Assembly: GCF_002251835.1 (NCBI RefSeq)
Contig: NZ_NOXV01000304.1
Span: 6,149-70,148 of the forward strand
Direction of reading: 5' to 3'
From: Flavobacterium cyanobacteriorum
Lineage (GTDB): Bacteria > Bacteroidota > Bacteroidia > Flavobacteriales > Flavobacteriaceae
DNA length: 64,000 nt
Below the pieces are notes generated by a model, which did not search any database, was not told where the DNA came from, and saw only the letters and a list, made by a program, of their open reading frames with translations. The position numbers were made by a program, and so were the translations under genes. The first letter of the stretch is position 1. Each line of letters starts with the position of its first letter. This document shows, one piece after another, positions 40,911-55,631 of the stretch.

Positions 40911-41417
40911 ATGAGTATAGCAGAAATAAAAAATAAAATAAGTATGCCCTGGTATGTGCTATATACAAACCCAAGAGCTGAAAAAAAAGTAGCAGCACAA
41001 CTTACAGCATTAGGCATGGACGTTTATTGCCCGTTAGTCACTAAAGTCCAGCAATGGTCTGACAGGAAGAAGAAAATAAAAACACCCCTTTTTACCTCAT
41101 ATGTATTTATAAATATTGATGAGCAGCATCGGGATAAGGTTTTTTCTATAAAGGGCGTAGCCAGGTACCTTTACTGGCTGGGCAAGCCTGCGGTGGTACG
41201 CGATGAAGAAATTGCGGAGATTAAGAAATGGCTGGCAACGGATTATCTTGATGTTAAAATGGACAATTACAGCAAAGGAGATGAAGTGGAAATCAAGGAA
41301 GGGCCGTTTAAGAATTTTAAAGGTATAGTACAGGAAATTGGCAATACTACAATTCGGCTTGCATTGCCTTCTATTGGTATAATTTTAACGTTGAAGTATA
41401 GCAAATTACCCTCCTGA
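40911..41417 (+). CDS. NusG-family antitermination factor of the RfaH/UpxY/LoaP kind
   Basis: The 168-residue protein has an NGN domain beginning MPWYVLYTNPRAEKKVAAQL (from residue 12) and a KOW domain (KGDEVEIKEGPFKNFKGIVQEI, about residues 120-141). It is clearly distinct from the housekeeping NusG encoded at 1755, being shorter in the linker and ending LKYSKLPS. Specialised NusG paralogues within capsule or exopolysaccharide operons prevent early termination in those long transcripts, as shown for RfaH, UpxY and LoaP. The start may instead be the ATG at 40944. Its place in the locus supports that role; the recognition site is not identified. Confidence 0.85.
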   Translation: MSIAEIKNKISMPWYVLYTNPRAEKKVAAQLTALGMDVYCPLVTKVQQWSDRKKKIKTPLFTSYVFINIDEQHRDKVFSIKGVARYLYWLGKPAVVRDEEIAEIKKWLATDYLDVKMDNYSKGDEVEIKEGPFKNFKGIVQEIGNTTIRLALPSIGIILTLKYSKLPS

Positions 41418-41438: not shown

Positions 41439-42440
41439 ATGAGCAATATTTTGCATGTTATCCTGACTGGGGGGGTAGGAAGCAGGTTATGGCCACTGTC
41501 CCGGAAGAGTAAGCCAAAACAATATCTTAACCTCTTTCAGGGAAAATCACTTTTTGAAATGACCCTTGAGAGGAATTTCGGTATTGCTTCGGATGTGGTT
41601 GTGGTAGGGAATACAGATAACCGCATACTTTCAGAAGAGGCGCTGGAGAAAGCCGGTGTAAGCCATTACCATGAAATTGTAGAATCTACACCCCGAAATA
41701 CAGCCGCAGCTATTGCGTTCGCTGCATTTGAAGCAGAAAGTAATGACATACTTGTGGTGACACCTTCTGACCATATTATAAACGGTATCGACGGGTACAG
41801 GAAAACAATACTGGAGGCTATAGGCCTTGCCAGCGAAGGCTATCTTGTTACTTTTGGTATCAACCCCTTACGGCCTGAAACAGGGTATGGCTATATTGAA
41901 TATTCCGGTAACGATGTAGTGGCTTTTCATGAGAAGCCTGACCTTGACAGGGCGAAGCAGTTTTTAACTACAGGAAGGTTTTTATGGAACAGCGGTATGT
42001 TCTGCTTCAAGGCAGGAATATTCCTTGAAGAACTTAAGCAATTTGAGCCGGAGATATACGAAGCTTCAAAGAAAGCATGGGAAAATATGAATGATGGCGT
42101 TCTGGACCTTGAACTGTCTCTAAAAATACCATCACAAAGCGTGGATTATGCGGTAATGGAACGCAGCAAGCGTATTAAGGTCATTCCGGCATCATTTGAC
42201 TGGAGCGACCTGGGCTCATTTGAAGCCATATACGATTACCTTAAGGATATGGGCCATACGGTTGATGAGCATGGCAATATGATTATTGGTACCGATAAAT
42301 ATACAGTGTTTCTGGGGCTTAAGAATACCATATTCATCAGCACGGACGATGCCAACCTCATCCTTAACAAAGAAAATGCCCAGGATGTAAAGAAAATATA
42401 CGCACTGCTTGAGCAGGCAAATTCTCATCTTTTAAATTAA
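41439..42440 (+). CDS. manC: Mannose-1-phosphate guanylyltransferase
   Basis: ManC makes GDP-mannose from mannose-1-phosphate and GTP. The 333-residue protein has the pyrophosphorylase motif TGGVGSRLWPLSRKSKPKQ (about residues 10-28), ESTPRNTAAAIAFAA, and the FVEKP-equivalent VVAFHEKPD. It lacks the C-terminal isomerase domain of bifunctional ManC/AlgA proteins and is thus the short form, which needs a separate ManA and phosphomannomutase. It lies between the NusG paralogue and legB. GDP-mannose may enter the repeat unit directly. Confidence 0.9.
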   Translation: MSNILHVILTGGVGSRLWPLSRKSKPKQYLNLFQGKSLFEMTLERNFGIASDVVVVGNTDNRILSEEALEKAGVSHYHEIVESTPRNTAAAIAFAAFEAESNDILVVTPSDHIINGIDGYRKTILEAIGLASEGYLVTFGINPLRPETGYGYIEYSGNDVVAFHEKPDLDRAKQFLTTGRFLWNSGMFCFKAGIFLEELKQFEPEIYEASKKAWENMNDGVLDLELSLKIPSQSVDYAVMERSKRIKVIPASFDWSDLGSFEAIYDYLKDMGHTVDEHGNMIIGTDKYTVFLGLKNTIFISTDDANLILNKENAQDVKKIYALLEQANSHLLN

Positions 42441-42513: not shown

Positions 42514-43518
42514 ATGAATATGGAGCTACAAGGTAAAAAAGTATTGCTTACCGGTGCCGATGGTTTTATCGGAAGCCATCTTGCTGAAAGGCTTTTAGCA
42601 GAAGGATGCCAGGTGAGGGCTTTTGTATATTATAATTCTTTTAACTCATGGGGATGGTTGGACACCCTGCCAAAAGAAACCCGCGACAGATTTGAAATAT
42701 TTGCAGGTGATATCCGTGACCCTAACGGTGTAAGGACAGCCATCAAGGATATTGATGTAGTTTTTCACCTGGCTGCGTTAATAGCTATCCCTTTTAGTTA
42801 CCATTCGCCTGATTCTTATATTGATACAAATGTAAAAGGTACGCTAAATATTATACAGGCTGCAAAAGACCTTAACGTTTCACGTGTACTGGTTACATCT
42901 ACATCAGAAGTATATGGTACGGCACAGTTTGTACCTATCACGGAGGAGCATCCCAAGCAGCCGCAATCTCCTTATTCAGCATCTAAAATCGGGGCCGACT
43001 GTATTGCAGACTCTTTCTACAGGAGCTTCGACCTGCCGCTTACCATTGTGAGGCCATTTAATACCTACGGGCCCAGGCAGTCGGCAAGGGCGGTAATACC
43101 TACAATAATTACCCAGCTTTTGAGCGGGATGGAAGAAATAAAGCTGGGCGATATAACTCCAACCCGCGATCTCCTGTTTGTAAAAGATACTGCCAATGGC
43201 TTTGTTGAAATTGCTAAATGCGGTGCACTTATTGGACATGAAGTAAACATTGCCACGCAAAGTGAAATTTCGGTGGGCGACCTTGCCCTGGAAATGATCA
43301 GCCAAATCAACCCAAATGCAAGGATAGTTTCAGATGAGCAAAGGCTAAGGCCGGCAAAAAGCGAAGTATTCAGGTTATTCGGATCAAACGAAAAGCTTAA
43401 GCAATTTACGCCATGGCAGCAAAACTATACTTTGCAGCAGGGTATAGCCGAAACCATTGAATGGTTTAAAAAAGAAGAAAACTTAAGTAGGTATAAAGCT
43501 GATATATACAATGTCTAA
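42514..43518 (+). CDS. legB: NAD-dependent 4,6-dehydratase LegB
   Basis: LegB removes water from GDP- or UDP-GlcNAc to give the 4-keto-6-deoxy sugar that starts legionaminic acid synthesis. The 334-residue SDR protein has GADGFIGS (residues 14-21), the active-site TSTSEVYG and YSASKIGAD (Tyr-xxx-Lys), and NTYGPRQSARAVIPT. The family assignment is supported by the next genes, which follow the leg order. It overlaps legC by eight bases. An in-frame alternative ATG at 42520 exists. With a PtmE-like guanylyltransferase in the cluster, GDP-GlcNAc is the more likely substrate. Confidence 0.87.
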   Translation: MNMELQGKKVLLTGADGFIGSHLAERLLAEGCQVRAFVYYNSFNSWGWLDTLPKETRDRFEIFAGDIRDPNGVRTAIKDIDVVFHLAALIAIPFSYHSPDSYIDTNVKGTLNIIQAAKDLNVSRVLVTSTSEVYGTAQFVPITEEHPKQPQSPYSASKIGADCIADSFYRSFDLPLTIVRPFNTYGPRQSARAVIPTIITQLLSGMEEIKLGDITPTRDLLFVKDTANGFVEIAKCGALIGHEVNIATQSEISVGDLALEMISQINPNARIVSDEQRLRPAKSEVFRLFGSNEKLKQFTPWQQNYTLQQGIAETIEWFKKEENLSRYKADIYNV

Positions 43519-44653
43519 GTATCCTGAAGTAATACAATTTATACAGGAAGCCTATGGCACTAAAGAATTTATACCGCTTCATGCCCCACATTTCGGAGGC
43601 AACGAAAAAAAATACCTTAACGATACTATTGATACAACATTTGTATCATCAGTTGGGGCCTATGTAGACCGTTTTGAGGTTATGATGGCCGAAATAAGCC
43701 AGGCACGGAAAGCAGTTGCCTTGGTAAATGGTACTGCCGGTATACAGGTAGCTTTGAGGCTTGCGGGGGTAAAGCAGGGCGATGAGGTGCTTACACAGGC
43801 GCTCACTTTTGTTGCCACTGCAAATGCTATAGCATATAATGGCGCTACACCTGTTTTTATAGATGTTGACCACGATACTATGGGCCTGTCGCCCAAGGCT
43901 GTCGAAGAATTCCTGGAAGAATTTGGTGAGCTGAGGGAGGATGGCTGTTATAATAAAAGTACAGGTAAAAAAATAGCCGCCTGTGTACCCATGCACACCT
44001 TCGGTTTTCCTGTACATATGGATGGACTGCTTGCCGTGTGTAGCAAATGGCGCATACCGGTAGTGGAAGATGCCGCCGAATCTCTGGGCAGTGAATACAA
44101 AGGAAAGCCTACAGGCAGCCTGGGTAAACTTGGCGTGTTTTCCTTTAACGGTAATAAAATTGTTACCTGTGGCGGTGGCGGGGCAATAGTTACTAATGAT
44201 GTAAAACTTGGAGAAAAGGCCAAATACCTTACCACCACAGCCAAAATCCCCCACCCGTATGAATACGTGCACGATGAGCTGGGCTATAATTTCAGGATGC
44301 CCAATCTGAATGCGGCGCTTGCCTGTGCACAGCTGGAGCAGCTGCGGCGGTTCCTCGACAACAAAAGGTCGCTCGCCAAGGAATATGCCTCTTATTTTAG
44401 TTCAAACGGGATCAAATTCAGGACAGAGACTGAAGATACAAAAGCTAATTACTGGCTTATGTGCGTGGAGCTGGAAAATAAGCAGGAACGCGACCTCTTC
44501 CTCAAGATGACAAATGAAGCTAAAGTAATGACCCGCCCTATATGGCAGCTGATGTTCAGGCTTCCCATGTATCAAAATTGCCGGAAAGACAGCCAGCAAA
44601 ACGCTCTTTTTCTGGAGGAAAGGATTGTAAACATCCCCAGCAGTGTCAGATAA
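43511..44653 (+). CDS. legC: LegC-family PLP aminotransferase
   Basis: LegC aminates the 4-keto sugar made by LegB. The 380-residue protein is a DegT/DnrJ-type aminotransferase; Lys216 in FSFNGNKIVTCGGGG is the Schiff-base lysine. The N-terminal FIPLHAPHFGGNEKKYL and SVGAYVDRFE match the LegC family rather than the pseudaminic acid PseC family. The start overlaps legB by eight bases and the 3' end overlaps the GTG start of legH by eleven, so translation is coupled across all three. Confidence 0.9.
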   Translation: MSKYPEVIQFIQEAYGTKEFIPLHAPHFGGNEKKYLNDTIDTTFVSSVGAYVDRFEVMMAEISQARKAVALVNGTAGIQVALRLAGVKQGDEVLTQALTFVATANAIAYNGATPVFIDVDHDTMGLSPKAVEEFLEEFGELREDGCYNKSTGKKIAACVPMHTFGFPVHMDGLLAVCSKWRIPVVEDAAESLGSEYKGKPTGSLGKLGVFSFNGNKIVTCGGGGAIVTNDVKLGEKAKYLTTTAKIPHPYEYVHDELGYNFRMPNLNAALACAQLEQLRRFLDNKRSLAKEYASYFSSNGIKFRTETEDTKANYWLMCVELENKQERDLFLKMTNEAKVMTRPIWQLMFRLPMYQNCRKDSQQNALFLEERIVNIPSSVR

Positions 44654-45266
44654 AGAAGTAATACTTGCAGGATATTCAGGTCATGGCTTTGTCGTTGCGG
44701 AAACAGCACTGGCTGCCGCAATGAATGTAAAATATTATGCCGAATTTAATGCCTTGCCTGTAAATCCTTTTGAACTTGCATACCTTGGTTTTGAAGGCGA
44801 TGCACTTTTTTCGGGGTGGCAAATGGACTGTGATTATATACTTGGCATAGGCGACAATTGTATAAGATATAAAGTAGCCAGATTAATAGAAGATAAAGGC
44901 AAATTATTGGTAAATGTTATACATCCTTCTGCTTCCCTGGCCGCCAAAATTTCTTTGGGAAAAGGAAATTTTATTGCACGGAATGTTGCCATAAACCCAC
45001 TCGCTTTGCTGGGTAACTATTGTATATTTAATACAGGGTGTATAATAGAGCACGAATGTATAGTGCAGGATGGTGCGCACATAGCTCCAGGCGCGGTCCT
45101 GGCAGGAAATGTATCAATAGGAGAACGCACTTTTATTGGAGCAAACGCAGTAGTAAAACAGGGGGTCAAAATAGGAAAAGACGTTATCGTAGGAGCCGGG
45201 TCGGTGGTAGTAAAAGATGTTCCGGACAACGTAACCCTCTTCGGTAATCCCGCCAAAATAAAGTAA
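44643..45266 (+). CDS. legH: NeuD/PglD-type sugar N-acetyltransferase (LegH)
   Basis: The 207-residue protein has an N-terminal Rossmann-like part (VILAGYSGHGFVVAET) and a C-terminal left-handed beta helix of hexapeptide repeats (about residues 95-207), as in PglD and NeuD acetyltransferases. In a leg cluster this should be LegH, which acetylates the 4-amino group of the LegC product. It starts with GTG inside legC, with an eleven-base overlap, and ends three bases before legI. An O-acetyltransferase role (NeuD-like) is the alternative. Confidence 0.83.
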   Translation: MSDKEVILAGYSGHGFVVAETALAAAMNVKYYAEFNALPVNPFELAYLGFEGDALFSGWQMDCDYILGIGDNCIRYKVARLIEDKGKLLVNVIHPSASLAAKISLGKGNFIARNVAINPLALLGNYCIFNTGCIIEHECIVQDGAHIAPGAVLAGNVSIGERTFIGANAVVKQGVKIGKDVIVGAGSVVVKDVPDNVTLFGNPAKIK

Positions 45267-45269
45267 GTA

Positions 45270-46292
45270 ATGGAAAAAGTTTTAATAATTGCTGAAGCAG
45301 GAGTCAACCATAATGGTGATCTTGAGCTTGCAAAACAATTAGTAGACGCCGCGGCTGAGGCAAAAGCTGATTATGTGAAATTCCAGACATTTAAAGCTGA
45401 TAAAATTGTTAGCAAGAATGCACAAAAGGCAGATTACCAAATTAAAAACATAAACGACAACGATAATTCGCAATATGCAATGCTCAAAAAATTGGAAATG
45501 CCCGATGATTGGCATTATCAGCTATTAGAGTATGCACAATCAAAAAATATAAAATTTCTTTCTACAGGCTTTGATCAAGAAAGCATTGACTTTCTTGACA
45601 AGCTTGGTGTTGATTTGTATAAAATACCTTCAGGGGAAATTACAAATAAGCGGTACCTGCAACATATTGCCCGCAAGAATAAAGAAATTATCATTTCTAC
45701 CGGGATGGCTACGCTTGATGAAATAAAACAGGCTGTGAATATAATTGCTGAAGCCGGGACTCCTAAAGAAAAAATATCCGTTTTACACTGCAATACAGAG
45801 TACCCAACCCCTATGAAGGATGTTAACCTTAAAGCAATGAACCGGATAGGTAAAGAACTGGGGGTTACCATAGGATATTCTGACCATACACTTGGTATAG
45901 AAGTGCCCATAGCTGCTGTGGCATTGGGGGCAAAAATCATCGAGAAGCATTTTACTATTGACAGGAATCTTCCCGGGCCTGACCATCTGGCCTCACTGGA
46001 ACCTGCTGAATTAAAGCAAATGGTAACCTCAATACGCAATATTGAGCAGGCCATATCCGGAAATGGCAGTAAGGAACCAAGTGAATCTGAAAAAAAGAAC
46101 ATAGCCATAGTAAGGAAAAGCCTTCACTTTAATAAAAATCTCGATGCCGGCCATGTATTGAGAGAGGAAGATCTTATAGCCATTCGTCCCGGTACAGGCG
46201 TGAGTCCTTTGAGTATTGACGATTTCATAGGGAAAAAATTAAATACCGCGGTTACAGCAAATACGCCTGTGTTTGAAAATTATTTTCTATGA
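45270..46292 (+). CDS. legI: N,N'-diacetyllegionaminate synthase
   Basis: LegI condenses the six-carbon precursor with PEP to form legionaminic acid. The 340-residue protein is a NeuB-family synthase: a TIM-barrel starting IIAEAGVNHNGDLELAKQL, the SGEITNKRYLQ and STGMATLDEI motifs, the GYSDHTLGIEVPIAAVALGA segment, and a C-terminal SAF antifreeze-like domain (about residues 285-340). The SDHT wording and its company fit legionaminate rather than sialate or pseudaminate synthase. It overlaps legG by four bases (ATGA). Confidence 0.92.
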   Translation: MEKVLIIAEAGVNHNGDLELAKQLVDAAAEAKADYVKFQTFKADKIVSKNAQKADYQIKNINDNDNSQYAMLKKLEMPDDWHYQLLEYAQSKNIKFLSTGFDQESIDFLDKLGVDLYKIPSGEITNKRYLQHIARKNKEIIISTGMATLDEIKQAVNIIAEAGTPKEKISVLHCNTEYPTPMKDVNLKAMNRIGKELGVTIGYSDHTLGIEVPIAAVALGAKIIEKHFTIDRNLPGPDHLASLEPAELKQMVTSIRNIEQAISGNGSKEPSESEKKNIAIVRKSLHFNKNLDAGHVLREEDLIAIRPGTGVSPLSIDDFIGKKLNTAVTANTPVFENYFL

Positions 46293-47449
46293 GAAAAGTT
46301 TGTGTAGTAACGGGTACAAGGGCAGAGTACGGCCTGCTATACTGGACGATGAAGGCGCTTCAGGATGATCCTGAAGTACAATTAGATGTTTGTGTTACAG
46401 GAATGCATTTATCGCCGGAATTTGGATTGACATACAGGAAAATTATTGAAGACGGTTTTACTATAAATGAGAAAGTCGAAATTTTGCTGTCTTCTGACAC
46501 ATCAATAGGTGTTTCAAAAAGCATAGGTTTAGGCGTAATTAGTTTTGCTGAAGTTTTTGACAGGATTAAGCCGGATATAATACTTGTATTAGGCGACCGT
46601 TTTGAAATATTTGCAGCATGTACTGCTGCCATGATAGCTAAAATTCCCATAGCACACTGTCATGGAGGCGAAGCAACCGAAGGTTTGATAGATGAGGCTA
46701 TAAGGCATTCGGTAACTAAAATGTCCCACATACACTTTACGAGTACACAAGAATACAGGAACAGGGTAATACAACTGGGTGAGCAGCCCGGTAATGTACA
46801 TAATGTAGGTGCGCTAGGAATTGAAAACATTAACAGGCTCAAGCTTTTAAATAAGGAGGCTTTTGAAGAATCGATTAGTTTTAAGCTCAATAAAAAGAAC
46901 TTTTTAATTACCTATCATCCTGTTACATTAGATCATTCATCTGCCGGACAACAATTTAATGAACTGCTCAAAGCATTGGATAAAATTGAAAATGCCACTT
47001 TAATATTCACTAAACCCAATGCAGATACCGATGGCCGGATAATCATTGAAATGATTGATGAATATGTTTCTAAAAACAGCGATAAAGCCGTGGCATTTAC
47101 ATCACTGGGGCAGTTACGTTACCTATCGGCAATACAGTACATGGATGCCGTTATAGGCAATTCATCAAGCGGCCTTATTGAGGTGCCATCCTTTAAAGTG
47201 CCTACCATCAACATTGGCGACAGGCAGCAGGGCAGGGTTAAGGCAGCATCAGTTATAGATTGTGATGCCGATGAGTCATCAATATCAGGGAGCATTAATA
47301 AAGCATTATCAAATGGCTTTAAAGAAGAAATTAAGGCATCGGAAAATCCATACGGGACAAGAAATTCTTCTGAAGATATAGTACAAGTGTTGAAAACCTG
47401 TAGTTTAGACAATATAGTTAAAAAGAAATTTTATAACATAGTTAAATGA
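46289..47449 (+). CDS. legG: Hydrolysing NDP-sugar 2-epimerase LegG
   Basis: LegG inverts C2 and releases the nucleotide, giving the free sugar used by LegI. The 386-residue protein has the NeuC-type motifs VVTGTRAEYGLLYW (residues 6-19), VLGDRFEIFA, HCHGGE and the C-terminal GNSSSGLIEVPSFKVPTINIG. It belongs to the hydrolysing UDP-GlcNAc 2-epimerase family, and the context makes it LegG. It overlaps legI and the following formyltransferase by four bases on each side, both ATGA junctions. Confidence 0.9.
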   Translation: MRKVCVVTGTRAEYGLLYWTMKALQDDPEVQLDVCVTGMHLSPEFGLTYRKIIEDGFTINEKVEILLSSDTSIGVSKSIGLGVISFAEVFDRIKPDIILVLGDRFEIFAACTAAMIAKIPIAHCHGGEATEGLIDEAIRHSVTKMSHIHFTSTQEYRNRVIQLGEQPGNVHNVGALGIENINRLKLLNKEAFEESISFKLNKKNFLITYHPVTLDHSSAGQQFNELLKALDKIENATLIFTKPNADTDGRIIIEMIDEYVSKNSDKAVAFTSLGQLRYLSAIQYMDAVIGNSSSGLIEVPSFKVPTINIGDRQQGRVKAASVIDCDADESSISGSINKALSNGFKEEIKASENPYGTRNSSEDIVQVLKTCSLDNIVKKKFYNIVK

Positions 47450-48330
47450 GAATAATATTTATAGGGTCGGTGATTTTTTCAGCAAAGGCACTTGAAAAAT
47501 TACTTTCTGTGAATGCCAATATCGTGGGTATAGTAACTAAGGAGGAATCCGCTTTTAACAGCGATTTCTTTGACCTTGCCACAATAGCAAAAAAGCATGG
47601 CATACCTTATAACTATGTAAACAATATAAACAGTGCAGAAAGTATTGAATGGATGGGTGCATTACAGCCCGATGTTATATTCTGCTTTGGCTGGTCTAAC
47701 CTCATTAAAAAGCAGGTTTTGGAAATGTCGCGACTGGGGGTAATAGGTTTTCATCCGTCTCTTCTTCCTGATAATAAAGGCAGGCATCCGCTTATATGGG
47801 CAAAAGTACTGGGCTTGCCAAAAACGGGTTCTACTTTTTTCTTTATGGATGAGGGTGCTGATACAGGCGATATATTGTCCCAGCGTGAATTTGTAATTGA
47901 CTTTAATGATGATGCGGGTTCACTTTATGATAAAATGACAGCTACCGCGCTTGAGCAAATAGTTGATTTTCATGAAACGCTTAAGAATAATACATACAAA
48001 AGGACAAAACAGGATCCTTTAGCCGGAAATAACTGGAGAAAGAGAGGCATGAAAGACGGCCTTATTGATTTCAGGATGACGACCGAGACTATCTGTAACC
48101 TTGTACGCGGTCTTACAAGGCCATATGCCGGTGCCCACGCTGATTATAAGACAGAAGCCATTAAGGTGTGGAAAGCAGAGCCGGGAAATTTTACAAACGA
48201 TAATATAGAACCTGGCAAAGTCTTGCAAACACAAGAGGCCAGTATTGAAGTAAAAACAGGAAATGGCTCCATATGGCTTATAGAACATGAATTTACAGAA
48301 CTGCCCGAAGCAGGCACATATATAATTTAA
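47446..48330 (+). CDS. Formyltransferase-family protein in the legionaminate cluster
   Basis: The 294-residue protein resembles methionyl-tRNA and sugar N-formyltransferases: FHPSLLPDNKGRHPLIWA (residues 102-119) carries the catalytic His103, and DEGADTGDIL holds Asp142. The Asn that normally stands two residues before the His is Gly101 here. As remembered, a GFHPSLLP wording is shared by a whole subgroup, so it may be normal for this branch. The gene sits between legG and a PIG-L deacetylase, so it probably N-formylates an amino sugar after deacetylation. It is too short to be a tRNA formyltransferase of the usual kind, and context argues against that role. Confidence 0.8.
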   Translation: MRIIFIGSVIFSAKALEKLLSVNANIVGIVTKEESAFNSDFFDLATIAKKHGIPYNYVNNINSAESIEWMGALQPDVIFCFGWSNLIKKQVLEMSRLGVIGFHPSLLPDNKGRHPLIWAKVLGLPKTGSTFFFMDEGADTGDILSQREFVIDFNDDAGSLYDKMTATALEQIVDFHETLKNNTYKRTKQDPLAGNNWRKRGMKDGLIDFRMTTETICNLVRGLTRPYAGAHADYKTEAIKVWKAEPGNFTNDNIEPGKVLQTQEASIEVKTGNGSIWLIEHEFTELPEAGTYII

Positions 48331-48346
48331 AGCACAGCTATACTGC

Positions 48347-49018
48347 ATGAAAAATGTGATAGTAATTTCTGCTCATCCTGATGACGAAACACTTGGCGTG
48401 GGTGGTACAATGTTAAAGCATATTGCTAATGGTGATAAGGTTTACTGGCTTATTATAACAAATGTTTTTGAGGAGCAGGGCTTTACAAAAGAAAGGGTTG
48501 AAAGCAGGCAGGAGGAGATAAGAAAAGTGGAAAGAATGTTTGGCATTACAAAAACATTTATGCTGAACTATCCTACCATGACATTATCTTCATCGAGTGT
48601 AATAAAAATGGTGCCCCAAATTTCCAAAGTTTTTATGGAGGTGAAGCCTGAAATTATTTACAGCCTGAACAGGTCTGACGCCCACTCTGACCACCGGGTA
48701 ATTTTTGATGCAACAATTGCGTGTACTAAATCATTCCGCTATCCTTTCATCAAACAAATTTTAATGTATGAATGCATTAGCGAAACTGAGTTTGCACCTG
48801 CCCTCCACGAAAAAGCATTTATACCAAATTACTACGTGGATATTACGGATTATCTGGACAAAAAGCTTGAGATAATGAAAGTATTTGAATCAGAAATTGC
48901 CCCCGCTCCTTTCCCCCGTTCGCTGGAAAACATAAGAGCCTTGGCGCATTTTAGGGGAGCAAGCGCAGGGGTACATTATGCCGAAGCATTTCAATTACTT
49001 AAATTTATAGATAAATAA
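48347..49018 (+). CDS. PIG-L/LmbE-family deacetylase
   Basis: The 223-residue protein carries the zinc-binding AHPDDE motif at residues 9-14 and the second metal site in SDAHSDHRVIF. PIG-L enzymes remove acetyl groups from N-acetylated sugars. Its place directly after the formyltransferase, inside the leg gene run, suggests that the two replace an N-acetyl group with N-formyl on legionaminic acid or a precursor. Gaps to the neighbours are 16 and 10 bases. The family is certain; the substrate is inferred. Confidence 0.87.
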   Translation: MKNVIVISAHPDDETLGVGGTMLKHIANGDKVYWLIITNVFEEQGFTKERVESRQEEIRKVERMFGITKTFMLNYPTMTLSSSSVIKMVPQISKVFMEVKPEIIYSLNRSDAHSDHRVIFDATIACTKSFRYPFIKQILMYECISETEFAPALHEKAFIPNYYVDITDYLDKKLEIMKVFESEIAPAPFPRSLENIRALAHFRGASAGVHYAEAFQLLKFIDK

Positions 49019-49028
49019 TATTAACACT

Positions 49029-50075
49029 ATGAGAAATTACCGGGAGCATCTTCTCCAGTCCGGCAGTACTATTAAGCAAGCCTTGCACCAGCTCGATATT
49101 CTTGCTAAAGATGCTATTCTGTTCATAGTAGACGATGCTGATGTCCTGATAGGCTCCCTGACCGATGGCGATGTAAGGCGCGGACTTTTAAAAGGGATTA
49201 CTATCGATCATACAGTTAATGAAATCATACAGCCGCACCCGAAATTTATCAGAAAAGGGGAACAAAATATTCAACAAATAATTGAGTACCGGGAAGGTAA
49301 TTTCAGGATTTTACCCGTTTTAGACAAGGAGAACCGTGTGGTAAATGTTATTAACTTCAGGGAAATCCGCTCCTATCTGCCTGTAGATGCTGTTATTATG
49401 GCAGGAGGCAGGGGACAAAGGCTCCGGCCGCTTACCGATAGCGTGCCAAAACCATTATTGAAGGTTGGTCACAAAGCAATTATGGAACATAATGTAGACC
49501 GGCTTGCTTTATATGGGATTGATGATTTTTGGTTTTCCGTAAAATATCTTGGGGAGCAGATAGAAGCATATTTTGGCAACGGTAAAGAAAGAAACATTAC
49601 CATCCAGTATATATGGGAAGATTCGCCTCTGGGAACAATTGGGGCAGTATCTAAAGTACAAAATTTCGAACATGATTATATCCTGGTTACCAACTCAGAC
49701 CTTTTGACCAATCTGGATTATGAAAACTTTTTTGTTGATTTCATAAATAATGATGCTGATTTTGCAGTTGTAACCATCCCCTATCAGGTTAAGGTGCCTT
49801 ATGCCGTACTTGAAACAGATTCGGGAAGTATAAAAAGCTTCAAGGAGAAACCTACTTATACCTATTACTCCAACGGTGGCATTTACCTGATGAAGAAGTC
49901 AGTACTTGATTACCTTCCTAAAAACAGTTTCTTTAATGCAACTGATCTCATGGAAAAATTGATTGCCGAACAGAAAAAAGTTATTTCCTACCCGCTTATA
50001 GGATACTGGCTGGATGTAGGCAAGCATGAAGACTTTGAAAAAGCACAGCAAGACATTAAGCAAATTAAATTTTAA
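49029..50075 (+). CDS. ptmE: CBS-domain sugar-1-phosphate nucleotidyltransferase (PtmE-like)
   Basis: The 348-residue protein has two CBS-type modules at about residues 10-115 (SLTDGDVRRGLLKG is typical) followed by a nucleotidyltransferase domain starting VIMAGGRGQRLRPLTDSVPKPLLKV. In Campylobacter jejuni a protein of this build, PtmE, makes the GDP-hexosamine that feeds LegB. The presence of this gene inside the leg run therefore points to the GDP route. The nucleotide preference cannot be read directly from the sequence. Two bases separate it from legF. Confidence 0.83.
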   Translation: MRNYREHLLQSGSTIKQALHQLDILAKDAILFIVDDADVLIGSLTDGDVRRGLLKGITIDHTVNEIIQPHPKFIRKGEQNIQQIIEYREGNFRILPVLDKENRVVNVINFREIRSYLPVDAVIMAGGRGQRLRPLTDSVPKPLLKVGHKAIMEHNVDRLALYGIDDFWFSVKYLGEQIEAYFGNGKERNITIQYIWEDSPLGTIGAVSKVQNFEHDYILVTNSDLLTNLDYENFFVDFINNDADFAVVTIPYQVKVPYAVLETDSGSIKSFKEKPTYTYYSNGGIYLMKKSVLDYLPKNSFFNATDLMEKLIAEQKKVISYPLIGYWLDVGKHEDFEKAQQDIKQIKF

Positions 50076-50077
50076 TT

Positions 50078-50770
50078 GTGGAAAAACTGGTTGTAATTCC
50101 TGCGCGGGGCGGTTCCAAGGGAGTACCCCAAAAAAATATTAAATTGCTGCATGGTATTCCCCTAATCCATTATACTGTAAATGAGGCCAGGAAGGTTTTT
50201 GATGACAGCCGGATTATTGTTTCTACAGATGACGAAGTAATAAAAGATACTACGGAAAGAACAGGCTTAAAAGTCCCTTTTCTGCGGCCTCAAGAACTTG
50301 CCACAGACACGGCAGGTACCTATGAAGTGTTGCTGCATGCCCTAAACTATTTTGAAAGTACCGGGAAACGCGCGGATGTGCTTATACTCCTTCAGCCCAC
50401 TTCGCCTTTCAGGAAAGCCAGGCATATCGAAGAGGCCTTACAATTATATACTGCTGAAACAGATATGGTGGTTTCAGTTAAGGAAACAAAAGCAAATCCT
50501 TATTACCTGCTTTTTGAAGAAAATAAAGAGGGCTATCTGCAAAAGAGCAAGCCGGGGCATTATATACGCCGACAGGACTGCCCTCAGGTCTGGGAATATA
50601 ATGGCGCTGTATATATTATCAATGTTGAAAGCCTTAAAAGTAAACCTATTGCAGATTTTACCCGTGTAAGAAAATATGTTATGGATGAATTTTCATCACA
50701 TGATATTGATACACCGTATGATTGGCTTGTTGCAGAGTCTATAGCACAGTTACAGAATATTAATGGATAG
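50078..50770 (+). CDS. legF: CMP-legionaminic acid synthetase
   Basis: LegF activates legionaminic acid with CTP. The 230-residue protein belongs to the acylneuraminate cytidylyltransferase family: VVIPARGGSKGVPQKNIKLL at the N-terminus is the CTP-binding loop, followed by IVSTDDEVI, LLQPTSPFRKARHIEEA and the C-terminal IDTPYDWLVAE. It begins with GTG and ends inside the next gene, which starts eight bases before its stop. This is the last enzyme of the CMP-legionaminate pathway and delivers the donor for the transferase. Confidence 0.9.
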   Translation: MEKLVVIPARGGSKGVPQKNIKLLHGIPLIHYTVNEARKVFDDSRIIVSTDDEVIKDTTERTGLKVPFLRPQELATDTAGTYEVLLHALNYFESTGKRADVLILLQPTSPFRKARHIEEALQLYTAETDMVVSVKETKANPYYLLFEENKEGYLQKSKPGHYIRRQDCPQVWEYNGAVYIINVESLKSKPIADFTRVRKYVMDEFSSHDIDTPYDWLVAESIAQLQNING

Positions 50771-52205
50771 TTTAAGGAAAAAAACAATATCCGGCCTTTT
50801 GTGGACATTTAGCCAGCAGTTTGGCGTTCAGTTTATTAATTTCTTTGTATCGGTTGTTCTTGCGCGGTTGTTACTGCCACAGGAGTTCGGGTTAATAGGC
50901 ATGATAGCTATATTTGTTGCTATTGGTAATTCTTTGGTAGACAGTGGAATGACTTCAAGCCTTATACGTACTGAAAATCCTGATGATATTGATTATTCTA
51001 CTGTGTTTTATACTAATTTCAGTATAAGCTTACTGTCTTACTTCATCGTTTATTCTCTTGCCCCTTATATTTCATCTTTTTTTTCACAAGATATACTCAT
51101 AGGCATTATAAGGGTTTACTGCCTTACATTCATCATAAGGGCTTTTTCTACTGTCCAGAGCACGCGTCTAAACAAGGAAATGAATTTCAAAACACAAATG
51201 CTTATCAATATTCCTTCTTTGGTTCTTGGGGGTGTGTGTGGTATAATATTAGCATATAATGGCTATGGAGTATGGAGCCTTGTATATATGAATCTTATTC
51301 AAACATGTATAGGTACAATACAGCTCTGGATATATTCAAAATGGAAACCAAAATTGGTTTTCAGTCGGGAGCGGCTGAAATTTCACTTAGGTTTTGGTTA
51401 TAAACTAACACTGGCAGGGCTTACAGATACTTTTGTAAAGAATTTTTATAATATAATCATTGGCAGGGTTTTTCCTGCGGCCCAGTTAGGTTTCTTTACT
51501 AGGGCAAAAACGCTTCAGGAGTTACCTATAACCAATATTTCTGCAGCGCTGAACAAAGTAACGTACCCGGTTTTTTCTTCAATTGTAAATGATAATACAA
51601 AACTTAATTCCGTTTATAAACGCCTTTCCCAGCAGGTTTTTTTTTGGGTTTGCCCTATACTTACGGCATCGGTTATTGTAGCAGAGCCCTTGATAAAATT
51701 TTTACTTACTGAAAAGTGGCTCCCGGCCGTCCCGTACTTCCAGCTGCTTTGTATTGCAGGCATTGTTACTCCGCTTAACTCCTATAATTTGAACATTCTC
51801 CTGATCAAAGGCCGCAGCGATATTTATCTCAGGCTTGGGATTGTACGGAACATTATAGCTGTAGCAGGGGCCCTGCTCATATTACCTTTTGGCATGTATG
51901 GGCTATTGTATGGTATTATTCTCTCTACGTACCTAACTTTTTTCATCAATGCCTATTTTTGCGGGAAGTATATTGATATGTCAGTAGTTAACCAGCTTAA
52001 AGATACTTTACCTGTTTTTCTTATAAGTATCCTTGCAGGCCTCACAGGCTATTTCATAGAGTTTTTGTTAATTTCCTGCTTTAATAGTGACTTACTTGTG
52101 CTTATCGCCTCTGTATCCTGTATTTTTCTTTTTTATTTTGGTATATCTTACGCGGTAAAACTACCTGCTGCCATCGAAATTAAAACCATGCTGCTCAAGC
52201 GATGA
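50763..52205 (+). CDS. Wzx-type polysaccharide flippase
   Basis: The 480-residue protein has 12 or more hydrophobic segments and the Polysacc_synt/WzxC pattern, with ISGLLWTFSQQFGVQFINFFVSVVLARLL at the N-terminus and GLIGMIAIFVAIGNSLVDSGM following. Such proteins flip undecaprenyl-linked repeat units across the inner membrane. It overlaps legF by eight bases and the next gene by four, and a polymerase-like gene lies close by, so a Wzx/Wzy-dependent pathway is indicated. Base composition from here to about 54500 is noticeably more AT-rich than in the upstream sugar genes. Confidence 0.88.
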   Translation: MDSLRKKTISGLLWTFSQQFGVQFINFFVSVVLARLLLPQEFGLIGMIAIFVAIGNSLVDSGMTSSLIRTENPDDIDYSTVFYTNFSISLLSYFIVYSLAPYISSFFSQDILIGIIRVYCLTFIIRAFSTVQSTRLNKEMNFKTQMLINIPSLVLGGVCGIILAYNGYGVWSLVYMNLIQTCIGTIQLWIYSKWKPKLVFSRERLKFHLGFGYKLTLAGLTDTFVKNFYNIIIGRVFPAAQLGFFTRAKTLQELPITNISAALNKVTYPVFSSIVNDNTKLNSVYKRLSQQVFFWVCPILTASVIVAEPLIKFLLTEKWLPAVPYFQLLCIAGIVTPLNSYNLNILLIKGRSDIYLRLGIVRNIIAVAGALLILPFGMYGLLYGIILSTYLTFFINAYFCGKYIDMSVVNQLKDTLPVFLISILAGLTGYFIEFLLISCFNSDLLVLIASVSCIFLFYFGISYAVKLPAAIEIKTMLLKR

Positions 52206-53260
52206 CTCTTAGCAAAGAAAAAATTTTATTTTTAGTACATACTGAATACCATATGATGGTAGCATTAACCATCATTGCAGATAATTTTGCTGATGCTACA
52301 AAGTATGACATTATAATATATCAAACGGAAGATTATTCCAAAAGGAGGTTCCAGTTCCAAAAAGATATACACCTCTTGCCAAACCTTAATTATATTGTAA
52401 TCCGGTACGATGAAAACAGTAATACGTTTAATGAAGAGCTGTTCAAAGCCGTACATACAATTTCGAGAACCGGTTTCAGCAGGTTTGTCATGTTTAACCA
52501 TCATTCTTTCCTGGCAATATATCTTTCTAGAAAACTTGCCCTGAAGAATACTCGGATAGTATTAGCTCCGGATGGCCTTAAGCCTTATTCAAATACCAGA
52601 AGGATGACTCCCCGCTGGAGCTTAAAAACCGCAATTAAGTTTTATAAATTTATAAAAGGTAACAGGCTTTCTTATTTTTTTCATTATCCAAGCCTTGAAT
52701 ATGCTAACCTAAAAGAAATAAGCCTTATATATATACATTTTCCAAAGGCTTTTTTAAATTTTAGGAATATTGTTACTAAAGAAGTAAAAGTTCTTGAATC
52801 TGAAAATTCAAAACATTTGGTGAGCCGGTATTTTAAATTCTCAACAAGCAATGAGGAAATTTTTAATAATGTTATTTTTTTTATAAACCAGCCACTAAAC
52901 AATCAGGATATTTATAACTTTGAAATTGATTTATTAGAACAAATCAAACTAAAATTTCCGCATTATAAACTGGTCATAAAACTACATCCGCTGACTGATT
53001 ATGATCATGTGGAAAAATTTAAGGCATTAAATGCAACTATAATATCAGAAACCTATCCTGCAGAATTATATATTGCGCAGCTTAAACATTCTATCGTACT
53101 GAGTTTCTGGTCAACAGCATCATTAATAGACAATCCTTCATGCAGGTTTTACTGGCTATACCCCATGCTCCAGAATCGGGGAATTATGTTGAGCTATATT
53201 AATATACAGAACCCTACCGAACATATACTGGAGGTCTCTTCAATTGAACAACTACAATGA
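52202..53260 (+). CDS. Candidate nonulosonate (sialyltransferase-like) glycosyltransferase
   Basis: The 352-residue protein has no membrane segment and no GT4 or GT2 signature. It contains KLVIKLHPLTDYDHVE (about residues 259-274), then a TYPAELYIAQ stretch and SFWSTASL, a layout that recalls GT52 and polysialyltransferase-type enzymes, whose motifs are a basic HP and a Ser/Thr near the C-terminus. Because the cluster makes CMP-legionaminate, a transferase that uses a CMP-nonulosonate is expected, and this is the best candidate in the window. The assignment is inference and could be wrong; no GT family is certain. Confidence 0.5.
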   Translation: MTLSKEKILFLVHTEYHMMVALTIIADNFADATKYDIIIYQTEDYSKRRFQFQKDIHLLPNLNYIVIRYDENSNTFNEELFKAVHTISRTGFSRFVMFNHHSFLAIYLSRKLALKNTRIVLAPDGLKPYSNTRRMTPRWSLKTAIKFYKFIKGNRLSYFFHYPSLEYANLKEISLIYIHFPKAFLNFRNIVTKEVKVLESENSKHLVSRYFKFSTSNEEIFNNVIFFINQPLNNQDIYNFEIDLLEQIKLKFPHYKLVIKLHPLTDYDHVEKFKALNATIISETYPAELYIAQLKHSIVLSFWSTASLIDNPSCRFYWLYPMLQNRGIMLSYINIQNPTEHILEVSSIEQLQ

Positions 53261-54495
53261 GGGTAAATTACAATTCCATAGAAAAACAAAATACTGCCTG
53301 GGCCTATATCCTGTTTTTTATATGGCCACTTCTTGCCTTGATTGTCTCATTTAAAAACTTGGGGTATAAATATTCCAGGGTAATAATTATCCTCTTCTTC
53401 GGATTATTTGGCTACACCTTTATATTTAACGAGATGTCAGACTCTTATCGGCATGCGGAGTCCTTTAAATTAACAGCGACCAAGCCGTTTGGCGATTTTT
53501 TTAATATTGTAAGCGGGCTTTATTCTGAAGAAGGTACTAAGCCCGATTTTGTAATGGACCTCATAAGTTTTATTGTAACAAGGTTTACAGATAATACCAA
53601 GATTTATTTCATGGTGCTTTCCCTGATTTTAGGGTGGATGCTCATGGTAAATATCAAACTGTTATTAAGCCTCTACGAGAAAAACAAAACAGCGGCAGGG
53701 ATTATTTTTATTGCTTTCCTGATTATTATAATGCCTCCATCCCGCATACTGTCCTTCCGCCATTATTTGGGGCTTTTGGTTTTTGTTTATTCTTTATATA
53801 AATATTTTACCGAAAAAAAACTCATATATCTACTGTTATTAACTTTTTCGATTTTTATACATTTTGGGTTTTTAATGCTGGTTGGCCTCTTTTATATCTA
53901 TAAATTGTGTGGGCGCCAAAACAGGGTTTATTATATTTTGATTATTCTGTCTTTTATTTTTTACGAACAGTCTGCTACATTGCTTAAAAGCTATGGTGTA
54001 GGCTTAGGCGGTCTGGATAAGACCGTGCGGGGCTATACACATGAAAAGTACCTCGAAAGGGTTGCAGGATATCAGAATAACAGGAATATCATTATTAATT
54101 CTTATGCAAGATGGACTACTTTGTTTATGATATTGTCACTTATTTATCACAAACTCAGGATAAAGAATTTCGATAAAGTATCTGAATACCTGTACTCCTT
54201 TCTTCTGCTTTTTTTTGCCTTCGTAAATTTTATGCAGGGCCTTGAGGCAATAGCCAACCGGTTTAGCGTGGTATTCCAGGTTCTAAGTTGTGTATTTTAT
54301 GTGCATTTATATTCTCAGAACAATGTAAAAATCCCCACTGTTTTCAGGCAGGTATCGCTCATTTTCTTGTTACTTAACGCTGTAGTGCTTATAAGGGTTA
54401 CATTTGAATATACCAACATGCTCGTGCTTGTTCCTTTCGTTCCTGTTTCCCTCCTTGTTGATTCAGACAGTACAATATTAAACCTTATCAAATAG
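53257..54495 (+). CDS. EpsG/Wzy-like polysaccharide polymerase
   Basis: The 412-residue protein has about ten to twelve hydrophobic segments and a large periplasmic loop with polar residues, the general topology of Wzy and EpsG polymerases. FNEMSDSYRHAESF near residue 60 and SRILSFRHYLGLLVFVYSLY in the middle resemble the EpsG family. Wzy sequences are poorly conserved, so the call depends on topology and on the adjacent flippase and transferases. It overlaps the upstream gene by four bases (ATGA) and the downstream GTG start by one. Confidence 0.78.
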   Translation: MRVNYNSIEKQNTAWAYILFFIWPLLALIVSFKNLGYKYSRVIIILFFGLFGYTFIFNEMSDSYRHAESFKLTATKPFGDFFNIVSGLYSEEGTKPDFVMDLISFIVTRFTDNTKIYFMVLSLILGWMLMVNIKLLLSLYEKNKTAAGIIFIAFLIIIMPPSRILSFRHYLGLLVFVYSLYKYFTEKKLIYLLLLTFSIFIHFGFLMLVGLFYIYKLCGRQNRVYYILIILSFIFYEQSATLLKSYGVGLGGLDKTVRGYTHEKYLERVAGYQNNRNIIINSYARWTTLFMILSLIYHKLRIKNFDKVSEYLYSFLLLFFAFVNFMQGLEAIANRFSVVFQVLSCVFYVHLYSQNNVKIPTVFRQVSLIFLLLNAVVLIRVTFEYTNMLVLVPFVPVSLLVDSDSTILNLIK

Positions 54496-55631
54496 TGGCA
54501 AAAACTATAGGTATAGCAGCAAGTTTATTTAATAAACTATATAACTTGGCCGGCTGGAAAACTAAACGCCAACTGGTTATTTTTACCTCAGATGACTGGG
54601 GCAGTGTAAGGGTACCCTCAGCAGAGGCAAGGGAGAATCTATCTAAAAACGGTATTTCTATGGACTCAAACCGTTTTAACAGGTTTGATACCCTGGAGTC
54701 GAATAAAGACATGGAATGCCTTTTTGAAATCCTCACAAAGCATAAAGACAGGAAGGGCTGCCATCCTGTATTCACAGCCCTTACCAATGTGGCAAACCCT
54801 GATTTTGAAACAATAGAAAAAAGCGCATTTACAGAATATGCGTATGAGCCTTTTACTACTACATTAAGTAAATATGAGGGGCGCGATAAAGTATATGAAA
54901 TGTATAAGCAGGGTATTGCACAGCATATATTTGTGCCGGAATTTCATGGGCGTGAACACGTAAACATAAACAGGTGGATGAAAGCTTTACATGCGGGGCA
55001 TGAAGTCAGTATTAAAGCATTCAGGGAACATTTTTATTTTATTGATGATGCAGATTTGCTTCCTGAAATAAAAAAAGGCTTTGACTGTGCTTTTGATATT
55101 GACAGCCCTACCGAAGTACAGGGCCATAAGGCTATCATTAAAGATGGATTAGATTTATTTGAAAACTTATTTAATTACAGGGCTTCTTTCTTTACGGCTC
55201 CTTCTATGATTTTTAGCCCCGCTATTGAGATAGAATTAAAAGATTCCGGTATTGAAGTGATAGATGTTCCCAGGCTGCAAAAAATCCCTTTGGGCAATAA
55301 CAGATATAAAAAGAAATTAAATTTCATGGGCAGCAAGAACACACATAAGCAATTTTATGTAACACGTAATGCTGTTTTTGAGCCCAATATACAAGATGAT
55401 TCTGATAGTATAGGCAGTTGTCTTAAAAATATAGCCGAAGCTTTTAAAAATAACAGCCCGGCCATAATAAGCAATCACCGTGCGGCTTTTACAGGAGGTC
55501 TTAATCCAGAAAATCGTGAAAAAGGTATTAAAGCACTGGATTGCCTGCTGGGAAAAATTGTTGATACATGGCCTAATGTAGAGTTTATAACTATGAAGCA
55601 GTTGCACTATATAATGAATAACAGTGATTAG
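54495..55631 (+). CDS. Polysaccharide-deacetylase-like protein, tandem copy 1
   Basis: The 378-residue soluble protein has no signal peptide. Near the N-terminus it has IFTSDDWGSVRVPS with Asp33-Asp34-Trp-Gly-Ser37, then HPVFTALTNVANPDF, YEPFT, FHGREH at residues 150-155 and ISNHRAAFTG near the C-terminus. The spacing of the acidic, His-rich and late His motifs resembles the beta/alpha barrel of polysaccharide deacetylases, though the canonical NodB motifs are not exact. It starts with GTG, overlapping the polymerase stop by one base. The next gene is a paralogue. Substrate and activity are unknown; N- or O-deacetylation of a glycan intermediate is possible. Confidence 0.6.
   Translation: MAKTIGIAASLFNKLYNLAGWKTKRQLVIFTSDDWGSVRVPSAEARENLSKNGISMDSNRFNRFDTLESNKDMECLFEILTKHKDRKGCHPVFTALTNVANPDFETIEKSAFTEYAYEPFTTTLSKYEGRDKVYEMYKQGIAQHIFVPEFHGREHVNINRWMKALHAGHEVSIKAFREHFYFIDDADLLPEIKKGFDCAFDIDSPTEVQGHKAIIKDGLDLFENLFNYRASFFTAPSMIFSPAIEIELKDSGIEVIDVPRLQKIPLGNNRYKKKLNFMGSKNTHKQFYVTRNAVFEPNIQDDSDSIGSCLKNIAEAFKNNSPAIISNHRAAFTGGLNPENREKGIKALDCLLGKIVDTWPNVEFITMKQLHYIMNNSD

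Follow-up and report, generated by a model that had tools for sequence, protein, structure and literature searches.

We analysed a 64,000-nucleotide stretch of the Flavobacterium cyanobacteriorum genome (contig NZ_NOXV01000304.1; hereafter the window). At positions 42514-50770 it carries nine intact open reading frames (ORFs) on the + strand, in the order legB-C-H-I-G-fmt-pigL-ptmE-legF. This run sits within a capsule locus and combines genes of the pathway for legionaminic acid (Leg), a nonulosonic acid (NulO), with genes for a formyltransferase (fmt) and a PIG-L deacetylase (pigL). Three things are read directly from the sequence: the genes of the pathway, a conserved fmt-pigL pair and an altered LegG. 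From them we predict, with a probability of about two in three, that the cluster makes cytidine monophosphate (CMP)-Leg5Fo7Ac, in which N5 bears formyl and N7 acetyl, for a surface glycan of the capsule type, the acetyl at N2 being exchanged for formyl before LegG acts. The exchange of an acyl group at N2/N5 is the part of this proposal that we hold most firmly; formyl is likely to be the transferred group, and the placing of the exchange before LegG is probable. The Leg part is a known and ordinary pathway; what is new is the acyl-exchange logic and the CMP-Leg5Fo7Ac hypothesis.

In the proposed route, the PtmE-like enzyme would make nucleotide-linked N-acetylglucosamine (GlcNAc), LegB and LegC would produce a 4-amino sugar, and LegH would put acetyl on the new 4-amine. 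PIG-L would hydrolyse the 2-N-acetyl that GlcNAc brings along; the formyltransferase, which we call Gly type, would then formylate the uncovered 2-amine with formyl-folate as donor. A deacetylase would be needed for N2 because N2 is born acetylated and N4 is born free. The exchange could occur on nucleotide-GlcNAc or after LegH, either way before LegG. LegG, adapted through a larger aliphatic residue close to the catalytic Asp, would epimerise C2 and release the sugar, LegI would condense the product with phosphoenolpyruvate (N2 becoming N5 and N4 becoming N7), and LegF would add CMP. The product of ORF 52202 may transfer the CMP-activated sugar.

The fmt-pigL pair is widely conserved. Named genomes were scanned with an alignment of seven formyltransferase homologues, five from Leg loci and two from bacillosamine-like loci, and the best 80 of 124 relatives were taken as formyltransferase loci (individual loci are cited as L055 and so on). 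By record title, these 80 come from Bacteroidota, Campylobacterota, alpha-, beta- and gammaproteobacteria, Bacillota, Nitrospirota, Omnitrophota, Cyanobacteria, Desulfobacterota, Spirochaetota and others. A first-pass annotation of this DNA had described legionaminic acid as mostly a matter of Legionella and Campylobacter, which does not agree with the spread of such loci over many phyla. PIG-L is the next gene after the formyltransferase in 75 of the 80 loci (L077 and L104 included); the five exceptions are contig edges in L055, L099 and L103 and a PIG-L several genes off in L066 and L110. LegI or LegG with at least 40% identity is present in 70/80 loci, and the gene directly upstream of the formyltransferase is LegG in 57/80 and LegI in 12/80. 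The window PIG-L has the HPDDE motif (residues 10-14) and the HxxH metal site (113, 116) of the PIG-L / LmbE family, and these residues are conserved: H10, D12, D13 and E14 in 75/75 homologues, H113 and H116 in 76/76. By comparison, PIG-L is missing from 24 of 27 control stretches of Bacteroidota around LegB without this formyltransferase; 20 of the 27 hold a LegI-like gene, and 17 of those 20 are without PIG-L. Within Bacteroidota the formyl-pair Leg locus is a minority variant: among 395 sampled genomes LegB was found in 29 and the formyltransferase (E <= 1e-38) in 7. The mirror-tree correlation between formyltransferase and PIG-L (0.50) is not above that between formyltransferase and LegI (0.69), and we do not use it as evidence. 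A tblastn search of phages with the formyltransferase gave 17 records, at best 30% identical and none useful, and in the partly covered open-access literature we found none that reports PIG-L paired with a formyltransferase at NulO loci.

The pair could instead act on another capsule sugar and leave the NulO as ordinary Leg5Ac7Ac, and similar pairs do occur with no NulO synthase in view (L027, L029, L105-L107, L157). The presence of LegI or LegG in 70 of the 80 loci and the covariation of LegG with the formyltransferase, described below, make this very improbable.

Sugar N-formyltransferases use an Asn-His-Asp catalytic triad. The structure model of the window formyltransferase (predicted local distance difference test score, pLDDT, 95.6) has the ArnA transformylase domain 2bln as its closest fold (Z 34.1, root-mean-square deviation 1.8 over 285). 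In all 79 pair-type enzymes with letters at the site (81 aligned, window included) the triad Asn is replaced by Gly, while His103 is kept in 79/79 and Asp139 in 81/81. Asn is present in 12/12 housekeeping Fmts and in 6/6 formyltransferases at the LegH position, and the 83 Gly-type tips form a single clade with a support of 0.89 (midpoint root). We class the Gly-type enzyme as one that probably works like a folate-dependent sugar N-formyltransferase, outside the canonical membership, as it has the fold but not the triad. Because Gly replaces the catalytic Asn, formyl as the group and the timing of the exchange can only be inferred. The uniform substitution in one clade would also fit an enzyme that exchanges the 2-N group but makes use of the room freed by the loss of the Asn side chain to transfer an acyl group other than formyl. 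We consider this unlikely: His103 and Asp139 are retained, the fold is that of ArnA, LegG has exchanged Ala for a bulkier aliphatic residue (as suits a smaller acyl group), and Halorubrum has N-formyl. Formyl transfer is the reading carried forward here.

The position of the formyl group was also considered. Within six genes, a separate Asn-type formyltransferase gene occurs without LegH in 5 of the 80 loci and with LegH in 1; LegH alone is found in 53 and neither in 21. Such Asn-type genes look like a direct 7-N route, and in our reading the Asn type adds formyl straight to the free 4-amine, and the Gly type adds it to an amine first uncovered by PIG-L. Formyl could be placed on N7 by the Gly type as well, if PIG-L stripped the LegH-placed acetyl and the formyltransferase replaced it; PseJ, a solved formyltransferase named for pseudaminic acid, reportedly formylates N7. 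The separate Asn-type genes, the occurrence of one of them in a Leg locus without PIG-L (L115) and the location of the LegG signature next to the C2 base make this very unlikely, and N5 is the position we favour. A temporary role of formyl would be another possibility: as with ArnA and ArnD for 4-amino-4-deoxy-L-arabinose (Ara4N), the formyl group would serve as protection later removed by PIG-L, leaving a free amine. ArnA is indeed the closest fold, and the ArnA-ArnD precedent is given in the part of PMC12650200 available to us. Against this, PIG-L is also found in Leg loci without the formyltransferase, beside a GNAT acyltransferase gene. ArnD, moreover, presumably belongs to a family other than PIG-L, and we regard formyl as temporary protection as extremely unlikely compared with formyl as the final group.

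The main evidence for the exchange, and for its timing, comes from LegG. Alignment columns were compared across LegG, LegI, LegC, LegF and PtmE between loci with and without the formyltransferase. The most discriminating column of the five proteins is LegG-133 (overlap 0.04), ahead of LegG-129 (0.16) and of LegG-115 and LegC-305 (both 0.24). With the formyltransferase, position 133 holds L in 65, I in 3, V in 2 and A in 3 of 73 rows; L026 and L043 are one contig, so that the rows represent 72 distinct loci, 69 of them with Leu/Ile/Val. Without the formyltransferase it holds A (13), S (3), Y (1) or H (1), and Leu/Ile/Val in 0/18. Seven of eight phylogenetically independent contrasts agree with this rule, and the control LegGs are scattered in the tree. 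Residue 133 stands two residues before Asp135, which aligns with Asp143 of human GNE; the solved chains closest to LegG are 5zlr and 5xvs, and solved diacetylbacillosamine 2-epimerases carry Ala at the position of residue 133. In the sections of PMC4793188 available to us, GNE Asp143 is the proposed catalytic base and in one model lies 3.6 Å from C2, bonded to the 2-NH. A change from a small to a larger aliphatic residue beside the C2 nitrogen would fit a smaller acyl group already being there when LegG acts. In LegI, position 281 is V/I in 61/73 rows with the formyltransferase, in 2/15 discovery controls and in 1/28 held-out loci without the pair. In the five-protein scan, no column of LegC, LegF or PtmE covaried cleanly.

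The exchange might instead follow LegI and act on legionaminic acid, free or CMP-activated; the changes in LegG and LegI would then be lineage effects. The LegG tree shows some structure by label (5 changes vs 9.6 in shuffles), and the pair directly follows LegI in 12 of the 80 loci. The switching of LegG-133 with the formyltransferase in seven of the eight contrasts and the lack of a clearly two-state column in LegF speak against a late exchange, which we judge decidedly unlikely. We favour an exchange before LegG.

The rule for residue 133 was applied to a held-out set of 30 new loci, 16 from Bacteroidia and 14 from plasmids (L207 and L208 being near copies). The sole pair-bearing locus, L179, has Leu at LegG-133, as predicted, and 27 of the 29 loci without the pair have a residue other than Leu/Ile/Val (A 16, T 6, N 4, H 1).

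Several observations weigh against the proposed route. The two remaining held-out loci without the pair, L180 and L197, have Val at LegG-133 (2/29), so that the rule held in 27/29 in the absence direction and has one case only in the presence direction. LegI of L180 also has Val281, as if the pair had been lost, and its genome yielded only weak homologues of the formyltransferase and PIG-L; for L197, the search for both proteins covered its own plasmid record. LegG-133 was itself chosen after scanning every column of five proteins. Ala occupies it despite the formyltransferase in L066, L097 and L110, and in 1/72 loci (L055, contig edge) PIG-L is out of view. The shift at LegI-281 is weaker: its overlap of 0.26 is no better than that of the best LegC and LegF columns, and Ala is found in 12/73 rows. 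Some of the control stretches around LegB are short or without a full Leg set, and a few are ended by contig ends. The link between the two genes is not strict, as L156 has PIG-L beside an Asn-type formyltransferase and in L112 and L030 the Gly-type enzyme occurs without a PIG-L found in the stretch. Lastly, the window enzyme is without the usual triad Asn, and formyl transfer is thus not certain.

PIG-L is also found with other acyl partners. A close PIG-L (E <= 1e-40) is present in 12/395 Bacteroidota genomes, where it is paired with the Gly type eight times, with the Asn type once (L156) and with a GNAT three times. The GNAT is accompanied by a 3-hydroxyacyl-coenzyme A (CoA) dehydrogenase in L118 and by acyl carrier, AMP (adenosine monophosphate)-ligase and reductase genes in L154 and L158. 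Nine NulO loci, the held-out ones included, have PIG-L without the Gly-type enzyme (L118, L120, L123, L154, L156, L184, L188, L205, L206). Five of the nine (L118, L154, L184, L188, L206) carry a GNAT of one PF13527 family, which was found in 0/84 rows with the Gly-type enzyme (L023-L026, L031-L110), and in six (the same five and L205) LegG is a distant version whose residue 133 is Y, H or N. This suggests exchangeable acyl cassettes in which PIG-L stays the same and the acyl donor enzyme varies. A broader generalisation is tentative, and we put it slightly below even odds: bacterial NulO pathways would carry swappable 2-N-acyl cassettes, PIG-L joined either with the Gly-type formyltransferase for formyl or with a PF13527 GNAT, for larger acyl groups where, as in two loci, acyl-carrier/ligase/reductase or 3-hydroxyacyl-CoA dehydrogenase genes accompany it. 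Each cassette would have its own LegG version, so that the cassette and a single LegG residue would reveal the acyl group on N5, and the Gly type would be a formyltransferase subclass able to dispense with the classical Asn. A table in PMC8005017 on lipopolysaccharide core loci of Pseudomonas places the PIG-L gene PA5002 next to the GNAT gene PA5003, both marked unknown; by analogy, these genes might follow the same deacetylate-then-reacylate logic. In the parts of that paper available to us, legionaminic acid occurs only in a reference title. On an Ensifer plasmid (L205, 10167-12759) the genes run LegG-PIG-L-LegI with an ATP-grasp protein next, and neither a formyltransferase nor a GNAT was found there.

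The predicted product has a counterpart in archaea. According to the sections of PMC6137143 available to us, 5-N-formyl-legionaminic acid is found on glycoproteins of Halorubrum sp. PV6, whose predicted formyltransferase gene, HrrPV6_1050, has a number adjacent to that of legG. The published mass step, 2 x (1697.70 - 1546.65) = 302.10, matches the 302.111 of a Leg residue that bears one formyl and one acetyl group, and the residue mass thus equals that of the product predicted for the window cluster. By published description, the two systems are alike in having a formyltransferase gene inside a Leg locus and formyl as one acyl group; they differ in that the archaeal sugar belongs to an N-glycan, and no deacetylase is mentioned, nor any test of the formyltransferase reported, in the available sections. 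In a second haloarchaeon, Halorussus caseinilyticus, a NulO locus contains both PIG-L and a Gly-type formyltransferase. PIG-L-family enzymes deacetylate GlcNAc before a new acyl chain is attached in teicoplanin and A40926, and the relatives reviewed in the part of PMC4101496 available to us remove N-acetyl from GlcNAc units; unlike the window cluster, these antibiotic glycans receive long acyl chains and involve no formyltransferase. Formyltransferases in flagellin glycosylation islands have already been published, as parts of PMC5109656 and PMC4875605 describe. The window enzyme shares the fold of ArnA, WlaRD and WbkC and their His and Asp, but has Gly for Asn and a deacetylase partner. PseJ (PDB 6ci2, 6ci4) is likewise a formyltransferase named for NulO biosynthesis, but is distant in sequence (E 1.6e-12) and is said to act on a free amine without a deacetylase. 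The CMP-legionaminic acid pathway of Campylobacter jejuni, reportedly a guanosine diphosphate (GDP) route worked out by Schoenhofen in 2009, shares LegB, LegC, LegH, LegG, LegI, LegF and a PtmE-like nucleotidyltransferase with the window cluster, to which the acyl-exchange pair and LegG Leu133 are added.

Acyl groups on sialic-acid-like sugars affect antibody, lectin and phage recognition and are hard to predict from genomes. If the proposed route is true, a two-gene cassette and one LegG residue tell formyl from acetyl on N5 over many phyla. It would also explain the PIG-L genes of such loci, set apart a subclass of formyltransferases that lack the classical Asn, and supply the missing deacetylation step for 5-N-formyl-legionaminic acid, for which the available sections of PMC6137143 propose only a formyltransferase.

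The cluster is best read as a legionaminic acid pathway whose N-acyl group is altered. LegB, LegC, LegI and LegG pass their models (Table 1), the NeuB model TIGR03569 being one that cannot separate LegI from sialic acid synthases, and in profile searches of the organism's own 3.24 Mb draft genome the NeuB model matches once and PseG not at all. LegF passes no specific NCBIfam model, its best being PseF at 145 bits, below the cut-off of 205.7. The first-pass annotation had the steps to CMP-legionaminic acid covered and proposed a comparison with Leg and pseudaminic acid families; the comparison bears this out for LegB and LegC, which exceed the Leg cut-offs; LegI and LegG exceed those of the NeuB and NeuC models, and LegF is not assignable by such models. 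A pseudaminic acid pathway was rejected: PseB (82.1 < 407.75), PseC (208.3 < 423.5) and PseI (321.1 < 340.25) all fall short, and PseG is absent from the genome. Ordinary Leg5Ac7Ac with unrelated neighbour genes was also tried and is disfavoured by the fmt-pigL adjacency and LegG residue 133. The PtmE-like protein, a name we take to be apt for its ORF, has the nucleotidyltransferase and CBS region layout of the PtmE-type guanylyltransferase of the GDP route, a layout compatible with either GTP or UTP as its substrate.

The junctions from legB through legF measure, in order, -8, -11, +3, -4, -4, +16, +10 and +2 bp. The seven Leg genes and two additional genes thus form a tight run, as first annotated, with overlaps at only 4 of the 8 junctions, and the formyltransferase and PIG-L deacetylase do lie as intact ORFs between legG and ptmE. 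Since similar gene sets in similar orders recur across many phyla, the nine-gene run is more than chance. Directly 3' of legF follow a flippase (-8 bp), ORF 52202 (-4 bp) and a polymerase (-4 bp). The flippase, the EpsG-type polymerase and the sialyltransferase-like ORF make it likely that the glycan is exported; together with the Leg models and the fmt-pigL pair, this agrees with the earlier suggestion of a surface glycan containing a legionaminic acid variant. The NusG-like ORF at the head of the capsule locus is one that we take to be of the UpxY type.

Table 1. Genes of the predicted legionaminic acid cluster and its surroundings (window coordinates).
Feature	Position	Strand	Basis
NusG-like ORF, head of capsule locus	40911..41417	+	ORF listing
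Mannose-1-phosphate guanylyltransferase-like gene, 73 bp upstream of legB	41439..42440	+	TIGR01479 297.3 bits, below cut-off 372.95
LegB, NAD-dependent 4,6-dehydratase	42514..43518	+	TIGR04180 495.6 bits, cut-off 475
LegC aminotransferase (predicted to make the free 4-amine)	43511..44653	+	TIGR04181 538.5 bits, cut-off 420
LegH / NeuD-type N-acetyltransferase (presumed role at 4-N, later 7-N)	44643..45266	+	TIGR03570 193 bits, cut-off 160.8
LegI, NulO synthase; Val281 at 46110-46112	45270..46292	+	NeuB model TIGR03569 472 > 399.65 bits; PseI 321.1 < 340.25
LegG, hydrolysing 2-epimerase; Leu133 at 46685-46687, Asp135 at 46691-46693	46289..47449	+	NeuC TIGR03568 500.8 bits, cut-off 235.9
Formyltransferase-fold protein, Gly type; Gly101 at 47746-47748, His103 at 47752-47754, Asp139 at 47860-47862	47446..48330	+	PF00551 (Formyl_trans_N), PF02911 (Formyl_trans_C)
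PIG-L / LmbE-family N-deacetylase, HPDDE and HxxH	48347..49018	+	PF02585 82.1 bits
PtmE-like sugar-1-phosphate nucleotidyltransferase with CBS region	49029..50075	+	PF00483 (NTP_transferase) 142.5 bits, PF00571 28 bits
LegF, CMP-NulO synthetase	50078..50770	+	PF02348 (CTP_transf_3) 84.4 bits
Wzx-type flippase	50763..52205	+	PF13440 299.8 bits
Candidate NulO transferase, sialyltransferase-like (tentative)	52202..53260	+	shared motifs, low-confidence structure ranking
EpsG/Wzy-type polymerase	53257..54495	+	PF14897 40.1 bits

The four best named matches of the window formyltransferase are all from Flavobacterium. Among them, F. suaedae (L031) has legC to legF in the same order, along with the flippase, ORF 52202, the polymerase and two more genes. 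In L023, L031-L034 and L046 another 4,6-dehydratase-type protein (PF02719 in L031) stands in place of LegB upstream of legC.

ORF 52202 has no significant Pfam family, no homologue (E <= 1e-8) in the other 394 of the 395 Bacteroidota genomes, no match in phages or plasmids and no PDB sequence match up to E 10. Its relative in L031 shares the motifs PDG, KLHP and WST, and although the structure model of ORF 52202 is poor (pLDDT 52.7), Foldseek ranks the Neisseria lipooligosaccharide (LOS) sialyltransferase 2yk4 and the polysialyltransferase 5wcn at the top. These motifs and this low-confidence ranking tentatively point to a fast-evolving, sialyltransferase-like candidate. Further downstream lie two tandem related ORFs, 54495-55631 (378 aa) and 55624-56751 (375 aa), with no Pfam match at E <= 0.001 and no NCBIfam match at E <= 1e-10; their homologues are 41-43% identical at the same place in L031, and one at 33% is found in L157.

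Related gene pairs occur in other settings. The alphaproteobacterial formyltransferase-PIG-L pairs of L105-L107 have no Leg gene recognised within the fetched stretch. In L061 and L071, from Brevibacillus and Thermoanaerobacterium, the pair and Leg genes adjoin flagellar-looking ORFs, and the sugar of these loci may decorate flagellin. Bacillosamine-like loci hold PIG-L with a Gly-type formyltransferase in L027, L029 and L157 and with GNAT and acyl genes in L158, in each case beside an ORF that we take to be a sugar transferase; this suggests the same exchange on another 2-acetamido sugar.

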